A DNA stretch of 64,000 nt, from positions 317,501 to 381,500 of the forward strand of contig NZ_JAPMLP010000002.1 in NCBI RefSeq assembly GCF_026410285.1, written 5' to 3'. Positions 48,028-55,508 of this stretch are shown one piece after another. The notes beneath the pieces are model-generated. The model was not told where the DNA came from, ran no database searches, and saw nothing but the letters and a program-made list of their open reading frames with translations. Position 1 is the stretch's first letter. Each line of letters starts with the position of its first letter. The DNA comes from Sulfitobacter sp. F26169L. Lineage in GTDB: Bacteria; Pseudomonadota; Alphaproteobacteria; Rhodobacterales; Rhodobacteraceae. Both the position numbers and the translations under genes were made by a program.

Positions 48028-48863
48028 CAGCGCAGCGCCGCCGCACGGGTGGCGCGATCAACCTCGGGGCGGCGGCCAAACCAGCGTTCAAATGCCGGAA
48101 CTGCCTGATGCAACAGCATGCCAAGACCATCAACAGTGACGCATCCATATTCCTCGGCGGTGGCCAGCATTTTTGTTTTCAGCGGCGCATAGACCAGATC
48201 GGTCACAACAGTTTGCGGGCGCAGACCATCCAGCGGCACGCGCAACTCCGGCTTGCCAATCATCCCAAGGGAGGTGGTGTTTACCAACAGGGCAGCATCA
48301 TCAATAATGTTTCCTGCCTGAACCCAGTCATACACAAACACACGGCTGCCAAAGTCTTTTTGCAGCGTTTCCGCGCGTATTCTTGTTCGGTTTGACAGGT
48401 GGATTTCTGGTACACCAGCTTCCAGCAAGGACGAGATAACGGCACGCGCTGCACCACCGGCCCCCAGAACCACCGCAGGACCGCTGCGCGGGTTCCACTG
48501 TGGCGCGCCATCCTTTAGGTTTTCAATGAAACCATAGCCGTCTGTGTTGTCCGCATGAATTTTTCCATCCTTGCGGAAAATCAACGTGTTTGCAGCACCG
48601 ATCAGAATTGCACGATCCGTTACCAGATCAGCGATTTCCATCACCTTTTCCTTGTGTGGAATCGTAATGTTTACCCCGACAAATCCCATTTTTGGCAATG
48701 TTCGCAGAACGGTTTCCAGATCATCCGGCGCGATATCCATAGGGATGTAATGCCCCGTTATTCCGTATGTTTTCAACCAATGGCGATGCAGTTGCGGTGA
48801 TTTTGAATGTGCAATGGGTGTACCGATAACACCGGCCAAAGGAATGCGGGGCAGTTCGGTCAT
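48027..48863 (-). CDS. aroE: Shikimate dehydrogenase (NADP+)
   Basis: A 278-residue enzyme of the shikimate pathway. The substrate site is GVIGTPIAHSKSPQLHRHW and VNITIPHKEKVM with the catalytic Lys; NTDGYGF supplies Asn and Asp. The NADP-binding loop is VLGAGGAARAVISSLL with SNRTRIRAE, and VNTTSLGM follows. Typical length. It overlaps maf by ATGA. Confidence 0.97.
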   Translation of the reverse strand: MTELPRIPLAGVIGTPIAHSKSPQLHRHWLKTYGITGHYIPMDIAPDDLETVLRTLPKMGFVGVNITIPHKEKVMEIADLVTDRAILIGAANTLIFRKDGKIHADNTDGYGFIENLKDGAPQWNPRSGPAVVLGAGGAARAVISSLLEAGVPEIHLSNRTRIRAETLQKDFGSRVFVYDWVQAGNIIDDAALLVNTTSLGMIGKPELRVPLDGLRPQTVVTDLVYAPLKTKMLATAEEYGCVTVDGLGMLLHQAVPAFERWFGRRPEVDRATRAAALR

Positions 48864-49459
48864 TGGGCAATATCTCCGCGCAGGGCAAGGTAGTTCAGGA
48901 TTTCCAGCAAAGGCATACCGAGAACGTTAAAGTAATCGCCTTCGATGTGCGAGAAAAGCCTTACACCTTCTTCTTCCAGCTTATAGGCACCGACGGCGTG
49001 TTTGATACTGTCCCAGTTGCGCCCAACGTAATCGTCCAGATAGGCATCGGTCGCTTCGCGCATCCGAAGGCGAACCTGCCCGATGTGACGCCAGAGCGGT
49101 TTACCACCTTGATAAATCACCGCTGCAGAAAGCAGACTGTGCCGGGCGCCACGCATTGCACGTAGCTGTGCCAACGCCTCCTCTGCGGTTTTTGGTTTGC
49201 TCAGCAGTTTGCCCGCATGTTCCAGAATCTGGTCACACCCGATCACAAGCGCTTCGGGGTTTTTCTCGCTAACTTTTGCGGCTTTCATCTCAGCCAGCGC
49301 ATCGGCAATATCACGCGGCGGAGCCCCTTCGGAAATCAGCGAGGCTTTTACCATATCCTCGTCGATACGCGCGATCTGCACCGTGTGAGGAACAGCCGCC
49401 TGGCGCAGCATTCGGCTACGGATTTCAGAACCGGATGCGAGGATGATGTGGACAGTCAT
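48860..49459 (-). CDS. maf: Maf-family nucleoside triphosphate pyrophosphatase
   Basis: A 199-residue ITPase-like enzyme that hydrolyses non-canonical or specific NTPs (dTTP/UTP type or modified bases). Seen are ILASGSEIRSRML at the N-terminus, ALVIGCDQIL with the metal-binding Asp, SKPKTAEEALAQLRAMRG and KHAVGAYKLEEEGVRLF. It is the first gene left of the putative origin. A perfect DnaA box overlaps its start codon (49457-49459). The open frame to 49519 is ignored as it lacks the family start. Confidence 0.95.
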   Translation of the reverse strand: MTVHIILASGSEIRSRMLRQAAVPHTVQIARIDEDMVKASLISEGAPPRDIADALAEMKAAKVSEKNPEALVIGCDQILEHAGKLLSKPKTAEEALAQLRAMRGARHSLLSAAVIYQGGKPLWRHIGQVRLRMREATDAYLDDYVGRNWDSIKHAVGAYKLEEEGVRLFSHIEGDYFNVLGMPLLEILNYLALRGDIAQ

Positions 49460-49467
49460 GTGGATAA
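49459..49467 (-). promoter_or_regulatory. DnaA box, exact
   Basis: TGTGGATAA on the plus strand is the exact inverse of TTATCCACA. It overlaps the first base of the maf coding sequence. Confidence 0.75.
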
Positions 49468-49703
49468 CCCTTGCATGATCTACGAAGTATTCGGTGACAA
49501 CTTGTCGACAAAACACCATCCGAGTTCAAGAGCGGGATAATCCATCTATCCTATTAAGTTTGCCGCAGATTCCCCCACCGTGGAAAAGAACAATTTCGGG
49601 GTTTGATAACTCTTTTTGTTCGAAAGACATACACCAACTTATTCATAGATTATGGGTATCTATAAGTATTTAATTATATTATGTTTTTGTAATTAATCGG
49701 AAG

Positions 49704-49712
49704 TTATCAACA
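49704..49712 (+). promoter_or_regulatory. DnaA box, one mismatch
   Basis: TTATCAACA differs from TTATCCACA at one base and directly follows the most AT-rich part of the gap. Confidence 0.6.
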
Positions 49713-49747
49713 GGCCCGATATGGCACGTGATAGCCCTATATCGCTT

Positions 49748-49756
49748 TGTGGATAA
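49748..49756 (-). promoter_or_regulatory. DnaA box, exact
   Basis: TGTGGATAA is an exact inverse box. It faces the box at 49762-49770 across five bases, giving an inverted pair. Confidence 0.75.
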
Positions 49757-49761
49757 AAATT

Positions 49762-49770
49762 TAATCCACA
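49762..49770 (+). promoter_or_regulatory. DnaA box, one mismatch
   Basis: TAATCCACA has one mismatch to TTATCCACA and is paired in inverted orientation with the exact box at 49748. Confidence 0.6.
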
Positions 49771-49855
49771 GGTTTTTGTGTCCCTACTTAAAACAACAAT
49801 CTTTCTTTCTATCTTTATTATTATAAAGAGAAGGTCACAGACCGGAGAGAATGAC

Positions 49856-50305
49856 ATGGGTGATATCCTGAGCGTGGCCTACCCCTGGATCAAAGGGTTT
49901 CATATCATTTCGCTGATCTCGTGGATGGCTGCGCTGTTTTATCTGCCCCGATTGATGGTACACCACACCGAGCAGGTTGGTCTGACAGGCGATACCCATA
50001 AAATTTTTGCAATGATGGAATACAAGCTCGCAAAAGTGATTATGAGCCCTGCCATGATGGCGACATGGCTTTTTGGTATTCTGCTGGTTGCTACACCGGG
50101 AATCGTCTATTGGGGCGATGTCTGGCCGTGGACCAAAGGCGCGGGGGTTATCGCGATGACTGTCTTTCATCTGTGGCTGATGCGCCGGATGAAAGGGTTT
50201 CAGCGCGGAGAAAACACCGTAACCGGCAGGCAGTACCGTCTAATGAACGAGGTTCCGACCCTGCTGATGATCCTGATTGTGTTTTCGGTCACCGTGAAGT
50301 TCTAG
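49856..50305 (+). CDS. hemJ: Protoporphyrinogen IX oxidase HemJ
   Basis: A 149-residue membrane protein with four helices, the HemJ (CopD-like) family that oxidises protoporphyrinogen IX in most alphaproteobacteria lacking HemG or HemY-type oxidases. Seen are YPWIKGFHIISLISWMAALF with the haem-ligand His, YLPRLMVHH, VIMSPAMMATWLFG and GRQYRLMNEVPTLLM. The ATG at 49856 has GGAGAG about 7 bases before it. The longer frame from 49778 would run through the origin region and is rejected. It is the first gene right of the origin. Confidence 0.93.
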   Translation: MGDILSVAYPWIKGFHIISLISWMAALFYLPRLMVHHTEQVGLTGDTHKIFAMMEYKLAKVIMSPAMMATWLFGILLVATPGIVYWGDVWPWTKGAGVIAMTVFHLWLMRRMKGFQRGENTVTGRQYRLMNEVPTLLMILIVFSVTVKF

Positions 50306-53029: not shown

Positions 53030-53045
53030 TGTTTCACGTGAAACA
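53030..53045. other. parS centromere site 1
   Basis: TGTTTCACGTGAAACA is the perfect 16-base palindrome bound by ParB. It spans the mnmG initiation region, so its bases also encode the first residues. parA and parB lie 2.5-3.3 kb to the right. Confidence 0.95.
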
Positions 53046-54900: not shown

Positions 54901-55508
54901 TGGCCAGCGCCCTGTTGGATAATGTTTCACGTGAAACAATGGAACGACTGAGAGCTTTAGAAGCCTTGGTACAGAAGTGGACAAAAAAGATAAATCTTGT
55001 TTCAGGAAAAGATGCGCTCCAGGTATGGGATCGGCATATAGTAGACTCGATCCAGATTTTTAATCTGGCGCCCGAAGGTGGTAGCTGGCTGGACATCGGC
55101 AGTGGCGGTGGTTTTCCGGGGATAGTGGTTGCTATACTGGCGAAAGAAACCGATCCGGATCGCACATTTTCGCTTGTTGATAGTGATCAGAGGAAATGTG
55201 CTTTTCTTCGTACAGCTGCTCGTGAGCTTGATCTTAACGTAAACGTCATCGCTGCCCGTGTTGAAGAGATTGAGCCTTTAAATGCCCAAGTTCTCTCTGC
55301 AAGGGCGCTTAGCGATTTGCCGATGTTGCTGGAATTTGCTGAGCGGCATCTTTCAAAATCTGGTATGGCAGTTTTTCCCAAAGGGTCGAGTTGGCAGAAA
55401 GAGCATGAGGCGGCGCAGAAAACCTGGTCCTATAAGTTGGAAGTCGTAAGAAGTATGACAAATAGCGACGCTACAATTTTAAAAATTGAGGAGCTTAAGC
55501 GTGTCTGA
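54900..55508 (+). CDS. rsmG: 16S rRNA (guanine-N7)-methyltransferase RsmG (GidB)
   Basis: A 202-residue methyltransferase for G527 of 16S rRNA. The N-terminal helices contain VSRETMERLRALEALVQKW, then KINLVSGKDALQVWDRHIVDS and the SAM-binding motif WLDIGSGGGFPGIVVA. The ATG at 54900 overlaps the mnmG stop (TGATG). Codons 9-13 are read from a second parS site. Confidence 0.96.
   Translation: MASALLDNVSRETMERLRALEALVQKWTKKINLVSGKDALQVWDRHIVDSIQIFNLAPEGGSWLDIGSGGGFPGIVVAILAKETDPDRTFSLVDSDQRKCAFLRTAARELDLNVNVIAARVEEIEPLNAQVLSARALSDLPMLLEFAERHLSKSGMAVFPKGSSWQKEHEAAQKTWSYKLEVVRSMTNSDATILKIEELKRV
54923..54938. other. parS centromere site 2
   Basis: A second perfect TGTTTCACGTGAAACA inside the early coding sequence of rsmG (read as NVSRETM), 1.9 kb from the first. 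The two are the only exact copies found in the window. Confidence 0.95.

Follow-up and report, generated by a model that had tools for sequence, protein, structure and literature searches.

A predicted chromosomal replication origin between maf and hemJ in Sulfitobacter sp. F26169L carries a conserved module of a DnaA box and triplets

The intergenic gap between maf and hemJ in Sulfitobacter sp. F26169L is, judging from its sequence features, very probably the chromosomal origin of replication (oriC). The origin that a first-pass annotation had placed here is supported by a cluster of DnaA boxes, a change in GC skew, nearby parS sites, and a position that is conserved among relatives.

RESULTS

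Gene context of the maf-hemJ gap

The window analyzed here is a 64,000-nucleotide stretch (C22:317501-381500) of contig C22, which is 531,632 bp long (5,000 of them N) and belongs to a 3.89-Mb draft genome of 30 contigs; positions without a contig prefix are counted from the first base of the window. The gap (49468-49855; C22:366,959-367,355) is enclosed by two divergent genes: maf, encoding a Maf-like nucleotide pyrophosphatase, on the minus strand to the left (48860-49459), and hemJ, encoding the protoporphyrinogen oxidase HemJ, on the plus strand to the right (49856-50305). The maf product matched NCBIfam PRK02478 (E 5.9e-56; 189 bits against a cut-off of 269), and in the profile search the best Maf profiles aligned from its residue 1. 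The match of hemJ to TIGR00701 (E 2.5e-37) reached 128.1 bits, slightly below the cut-off of 138.05; the closest five HemJ relatives are all named Sulfitobacter (85 to 93% identity).

Of the flanking genes reported by the first-pass annotation, profile searches confirmed maf-aroE-coaE-dnaQ on one side and hemJ-rho-mnmE-mnmG-rsmG plus a ParA-type ATPase on the other. Its description of this neighborhood as the alphaproteobacterial origin context held for these genes but not for the Caulobacter-type flanks hemE and COG1806, which are no longer beside the gap. hemE, the usual origin neighbor in alphaproteobacteria, lies on a separate contig (G000:C25:332111-333118), and PF03618 (COG1806) had no match in the whole genome at E ≤ 0.001. 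Divergent maf and hemJ, separated by about 330 to 460 bp and followed by rho, were found in 80 of 80 relatives (the best 80 of 86 confirmed). Record L067 is titled Nocardioides marinus, an actinobacterium, yet its maf-hemJ region is of the Rhodobacterales type; this assembly is probably mislabeled.

DnaA boxes, A+T content, and other sites in the gap

DnaA boxes were scored against TTATNCACA with at most one mismatch, and their conservation was assessed in alignments that include the window, one of 81 rows at the order level and one of 41 genus rows. Two exact copies of TTATCCACA lie on the minus strand at 49459-49467 (box 1) and 49748-49756. Three boxes with one mismatch lie on the plus strand: TTATTCATA (49639-49647), TTATCAACA (49704-49712), and TAATCCACA (49762-49770), the last of which would anchor the presumed unwinding module described below. 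At the first two of these positions the genus consensus is TTATCCACA. The two exact boxes that had been claimed are thus present, with one more single-mismatch box than the two initially listed. Box 1 does overlap the maf start codon, as had been noted, by one base: its last base is the A of that codon. At the aligned maf start, box 1 was exact in 20 of the 81 rows and had one mismatch in 25, and TTATCCACATG occupied this place in 22 of the 41 genus rows. Every position of the anchor box TAATCCACA reached a frequency of at least 0.9 in the genus rows; across the 81 rows, it was conserved about as well as box 1. The gaps of aligned relatives contain more box positions than the F26169L genome retains in good form. 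The five boxes fall within 312 bp and form the top-scoring cluster on C22, which has 240 boxes in total at this threshold (roughly 0.2 expected per 400 bp). Over its full length, the window showed no box enrichment (28 matches at up to one mismatch versus a shuffle mean of 34.0).

The gap is AT rich, as the first reading had stated, at 62.9% A+T versus 45.1% for the window, a value reached by 0.085% of 388-bp stretches in the window. Its most AT-rich 50 bp begin at 49661 (84% A+T) and enclose a tentative IHF-like site on the plus strand (49663-49675), one mismatch from YAANNNNTTGATW, which we take to be the IHF consensus. The exact consensus occurred anywhere in the gap in 10 of the 81 rows (shuffle mean, 2.4; maximum, 6) and in 6 of the 41 genus gaps, 5 of them at the 49663-49675 place. 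With the strict consensus in so few rows, an IHF-type bend site is a tentative assignment.

GANTC methylation sites were not clearly enriched (344 in total versus a shuffle mean of 301 and maximum of 342; 62 rows versus 69.5). The motif TTAA-N7-TTAA, presumably the CtrA site consensus, was absent from the F26169L gap and present in 15 of the 81 order-level rows (shuffle mean, 1.3 rows; maximum, 3). Within the genus, 16 of 41 gaps carried it. Fifteen of these had it at a near-identical place upstream of the maf start (L217, L222, L223, L225, L226, L228, L230, L231, L234, L236, L241, L246, L247, L251, and L253), and L250 had it elsewhere. The 15 sites at this place often read TTAAGGANTTCTTAA or nearly so, at offsets 68 to 84 of the oriented gap.

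GC skew and parS sites

On C22, GC skew was mostly negative to the left of the gap and positive to the right. A cumulative skew minimum at the gap had been expected of an origin here, and this expectation was upheld in part: the best two-segment split of 1-kb bins fell in bin 367, at the gap, but the raw cumulative minimum was at 305.8 kb, 61 kb away, because the stretch from 300 to 360 kb is nearly flat. dnaA (C22:315507-316847) lies about 50 kb to the left of the gap and received a split score of 0.954 versus 1.000 at the gap; given such close scores, C22 skew alone is insufficient to decide between the two.

Two relatives with long contigs were sampled for the same signal. G014 is a single contig of 4,190,786 bp in which dnaA occupies position 1 and the gap lies at 122.8 to 123.2 kb. 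Over its first 300 kb, read contiguously, cumulative skew was lowest at 101,623, which is 21 kb away from the gap; the distance to dnaA is 102 kb. The first 100 kb of this genome had mixed skew, the next 100 kb had positive skew, and the stretch from 200 to 240 kb had negative skew. Beyond that, 20-kb samples had positive values between 240 kb and 2.22 Mb and negative values between 2.40 and 4.14 Mb. The sign reversal between 2.22 and 2.40 Mb places the opposite change approximately half a chromosome from the gap. On the 2.59-Mb contig of G054, 15-kb samples were negative in 12 of 12 cases to the left, −0.013 at the gap, and positive in 7 of 7 cases to the right.

Two perfect copies of TGTTTCACGTGAAACA, which we take to be the parS consensus, lie 3.4 kb (53030-53045) and 5.3 kb (54923-54938) to the right of the gap. 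They are the only parS matches found on C22 at up to two mismatches, with 0.03 expected per window.

A conserved module at the hemJ side of the gap

The hemJ-proximal end of the gap carries a presumed unwinding module on the plus strand (49761-49829), composed of the anchor box TAATCCACA, a 14-nt spacer ending in CCC, a triplet stretch, and a pyrimidine- and AT-rich tract. In the alignments, this block appeared as TAATCCACA, a spacer, CCCTAC, AAC or ATC triplets, and a pyrimidine and AT tract. Mean major-base frequency in the 41 genus rows was 0.823 for the block versus 0.551 for 49468-49760, and the best non-overlapping 69-bp window of the genus gaps reached 0.662. The module is the most conserved part of the gap within the genus.

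We searched genomes with a sequence-only model (R1) built from 62 of the 80 relatives, none with a record named Sulfitobacter; omitted were 7 named Sulfitobacter, 9 lacking the TAC anchor, and L053 and L056, whose anchors are shifted. Because some of the other training rows may belong to the genus of the window under GTDB, and the order genomes may include training genomes, the clearly independent matches are those outside the family. In the F26169L genome, R1 had a single match, at 49761-49829 (E 2.8e-10). Among 58 genus genomes, 55 had a match and 3 did not; these 3 are fragmented drafts that also lack a hemJ match. One genus genome had a second match (E 0.043). At E ≤ 1e-3, R1 matched 122 of 149 order genomes, at one site each, and had no match in the other 27. 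The site lay 31 to 93 bp ahead of the hemJ profile match in 110 of these 122 genomes. In the remaining 12, it was flanked by maf and rho, and the fetched 4 kb contained no hemJ match (12/12); the sole hemJ matches of these genomes were weak and elsewhere. Conversely, R1 had no match ahead of hemJ in 6 of the 116 genomes in which hemJ matched strongly: in 2, hemE is directly ahead of hemJ, and in the other 4, maf is nearby and the gap appears by eye to be module-like but diverged.

Across the class, 65 of 142 genomes had an R1 match at E ≤ 0.1; many of these matches seem to be chance hits. Of the 15 best matches outside the family (E ≤ 5.1e-4), 14 lay in 3-kb loci that include hemE, maf, or rho, and 10 of the 14 had maf and hemE on opposite sides; the remaining match is near a contig end. 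Matches weaker than about E 5e-4 are mostly chance: of the next 13 loci (L161 to L173), 2 (L168 and L173) had clear origin flanks, and L170 had partial mnmE-like matches only. Since the module is kept where hemJ is absent (12/12) and stands beside hemE elsewhere, it belongs to the origin rather than to one downstream gene. We infer an older order of maf, origin, hemE, hemJ, and rho, with hemE, and in some lineages hemJ, lost from the side of the origin.

Triplets and single-strand motifs

Downstream of the anchor box, the bottom strand of the F26169L module reads 3'-GAT GAA TTT TGT TGT TAG AAA-5' (49784-49804), a series of triplets resembling DnaA-trios. By likeness to Escherichia coli and Bacillus, and with the E. 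coli box orientation as we presume it to be, the bottom strand is probably the one bound. Trios were tallied in 72 of the 81 rows. The first was 3'-GAT-5' in 64, and the middle base was T in 54, 57, 48, and 45 of the 72 rows for trios 2, 3, 4, and 5, respectively; three consecutive NAN trios in the conserved phase were found in one. In F26169L, GAT and GAA are canonical in this phase, and the following TTT, TGT, and TGT fit neither NAN nor 3'-GWW-5' because two top-strand CAA triplets are one base out of phase. A NAN run of three does exist in its gap at spacer 1. The anchor box TAATCCACA is 13 nt ahead of the CTA triplet, inside the limit for the Bacillus basal unwinding system (BUS) of at most two mismatches and 16 nt, and the distance from box to TAC was 14 or 15 nt in 52 of 54 measured rows.

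Runs of 3'-G[A/T][A/T]-5' (GWW) were longer than in shuffled sequence, both in the order rows (mean, 2.93 versus 1.43; standard deviation [SD], 0.07), where 40 of 81 had at least three, and in 16 class rows (3.94 versus 1.52; SD, 0.15). These class rows were picked by flank genes, with L155 omitted and L168 and L173 added. NAN runs also exceeded shuffles in the order rows (3.70 versus 2.70; SD, 0.10), reaching at least three in 74 of 81 in some phase of the 26-nt module, a count that derives partly from its T-rich end. The class rows gave 4.56 versus 3.43 (SD, 0.24; maximum, 4.69), with at least three in 16 of 16. With such NAN runs available in other phases, the published rule can be satisfied nominally, and the deviation is confined to the conserved phase.

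At hemE loci across the class, a GWW run of at least three was present in 12 of 29 (a count that excludes L330, half of a split hemE), and 10 of these runs were near a box of at most two mismatches (shuffle mean, 0.32; maximum, 2); the leading G of such runs is part of the search pattern and is no evidence in itself. The other 17 loci lacked a run of this length, and several appeared by eye to have no origin-like sequence ahead of hemE. On the strand presumed to be bound, the motif TT[A/G]T occurred in 61 of the 81 rows (shuffle mean, 29.9; maximum, 42); the other strand carried it in 13 (shuffle mean, 25.2).

DnaA residues facing the trios

According to PMC10721633, Bacillus DnaA reads trios through Asn187, which touches the middle adenine at its amino group, and through Arg202 and Glu228, both in contact with the guanine; a middle T reduced opening. 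None of the pocket residues is universally conserved according to that text, and their properties are generally retained. When the DnaA of F26169L is aligned to structure 8btg, positions 187, 202, and 228 are occupied by Tyr, Lys, and Glu, respectively. We tallied 30 alphaproteobacterial DnaA sequences, from 29 of 30 searched genomes plus F26169L (7 of the 30 from one family; G065 was left out, with a weak partial match only). Residue 187 was Tyr in 24, Phe in 3, and His, Asn, and Arg in 1 each, and residue 202 was Lys in 30 of 30. At position 187, Thermotoga maritima has Asn and Aquifex aeolicus has Gln.

G180, which has Asn at 187, has three trios that by eye are canonical with a middle A (GAT-GAT-GAA). 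A strict covariation of the trio middle base with residue 187 is not supported, since G193 and G176 have Tyr and, by eye, three middle-A trios. The comparison makes an association between the two suggestive only. In a member of the family (L262, genome G203), DnaA has His at the Asn187 position, and the module opens with CAA triplets rather than CTA.

DISCUSSION

Taken as a whole, the proposal of an oriC in the maf-hemJ gap, with DnaA anchoring, opening at the hemJ-side module, and segregation through parS and parA, appears likely from the arrangement of these elements. DnaA would bind the boxes of the gap, perhaps aided by bending of the DNA around 49663-49675. At the hemJ end of the gap, DnaA anchored at TAATCCACA would extend as an oligomer over the CCC spacer and onto one strand, probably the bottom, of the triplets from 49784. 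The AT-rich tract at about 49795-49840 would open for helicase loading, and the nearby parS sites and parA would segregate the new copies. The boxes, the skew change, the parS sites, the conserved position, and the persistence of the module regardless of the gene that follows are observed directly; we infer the DnaA binding, the opening site, the choice of strand, and the order of these steps.

We weighed three other readings of the same data. An origin at dnaA, with the gap serving merely to titrate DnaA or to regulate, would fit the presence of dnaA on the same contig, the C22 minimum at 305.8 kb, which is nearer to dnaA, and the near-zero skew (−0.0025) between 317 and 367 kb. We consider it very unlikely, however, in light of the C22 ranking, in which no comparable box cluster lies near dnaA, the best C22 split at the gap, and the placement of the conserved module and the parS sites in or close to the gap. 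G014 also argues against it, with 123 kb separating dnaA from the gap and a skew minimum, within the first 300 kb, at 101.6 kb. A role for the conserved block as a hemJ promoter or leader rather than an origin element would account for its pyrimidine tract, its end just ahead of hemJ, and its occurrence with hemJ in most order members (110/122). This reading is hard to credit for a block that contains a DnaA box and triplet periodicity and that is kept in front of rho without hemJ (12/12) and ahead of hemE in other orders.

The third alternative accepts the gap as the origin and moves the opening to the AT-rich center of the gap (49640-49698), close to the IHF-like site, leaving the hemJ-side module another role, such as that of an origin-activating promoter. 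The most AT-rich 50 bp, from 49661, lie there, and promoter activation has been linked to replication from the Caulobacter origin (Cori) in a review (PMC4468827). Nevertheless, the central stretch is less conserved, and it is the module that shares the order of box, spacer, and opened stretch with the E. coli and Bacillus origins; we regard central opening as unlikely.

With the full gene order around Caulobacter crescentus Cori taken to be as we presume, the two loci share maf-aroE-coaE-dnaQ on one side, rho-mnmE-mnmG-rsmG-parA on the other, and an AT-rich gap with several boxes. Unlike the Caulobacter type, the F26169L origin would be flanked directly by maf and hemJ, with hemE on C25 and COG1806 unmatched in the genome, and its gap lacks TTAA-N7-TTAA. 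It has two exact boxes, whereas Cori is described in PMC1914354 and PMC4468827 as having moderate G-boxes and very weak W-boxes. In other orders the module lies between maf and hemE, which is where these papers place origins of the hemE/COG1806 type.

In the BUS of Bacillus subtilis, box-anchored DnaA extends onto trios of one strand, as stated in PMC8287927. The module resembles the BUS in having a DnaA box, 14 to 15 nt to TAC, a GC-rich spacer end, a first trio of 3'-GAT-5', triplet periodicity, and an AT-rich tract. It differs in that trios 2 to 5 of the conserved phase mainly have a middle T, so that a single row of the 72 reaches three NAN trios there, and in that Tyr, Phe, or His replaces Asn187 in 28 of 30 DnaAs and Lys replaces Arg202 in all 30. 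The base pattern fits the published trio rule only loosely. The unwinding element of E. coli oriC carries single-strand TT[A/G]T(T) motifs, as given in PMC10380432; enrichment of TT[A/G]T on the presumed bound strand and the IHF-like site in some rows are similar to it, but triplet periodicity is the main feature of the Sulfitobacter-type module.

Under one interpretation, alphaproteobacteria use a relaxed or re-coded opening code, with Asn187 changed to Tyr (in some cases Phe or His) and Arg202 to Lys. A canonical 3'-GAT-5' would be followed by 3'-G[A/T][T/A]-5' trios in which a middle T is allowed or preferred, and origins throughout the class would share the module as a signature that outlasts the loss of hemE and hemJ. 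We hold this as a speculative possibility that is doubtful at present; it is weakened because NAN runs exceed shuffles as well. Among open-licence papers, we found no account of the module or of middle-T trios in alphaproteobacteria, and an earlier description is possible; passages of PMC6315104 contained nothing on the origin sequence.

Origins in the Rhodobacteraceae have been assigned with Ori-Finder from the GC-disparity minimum, the local GC minimum, DnaA boxes, and proximity to parAB, in 101 strains, with 8 of 109 not unambiguous (PMC6699656). Compared with that approach, the module is a single-match marker in 122 of 149 order genomes.

The location of the origin is itself expected from the alphaproteobacterial gene context. 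Beyond location, the 69-bp module offers a sequence marker of the origin in most Rhodobacterales genomes that we examined. It can also be recognized in alphaproteobacteria of other orders, in which weak DnaA boxes can leave the call ambiguous. If the middle-T triplets and the replaced DnaA residue belong together, the recognition of single-stranded origin DNA by DnaA in this class would be directly testable with short scaffolds and point mutants.
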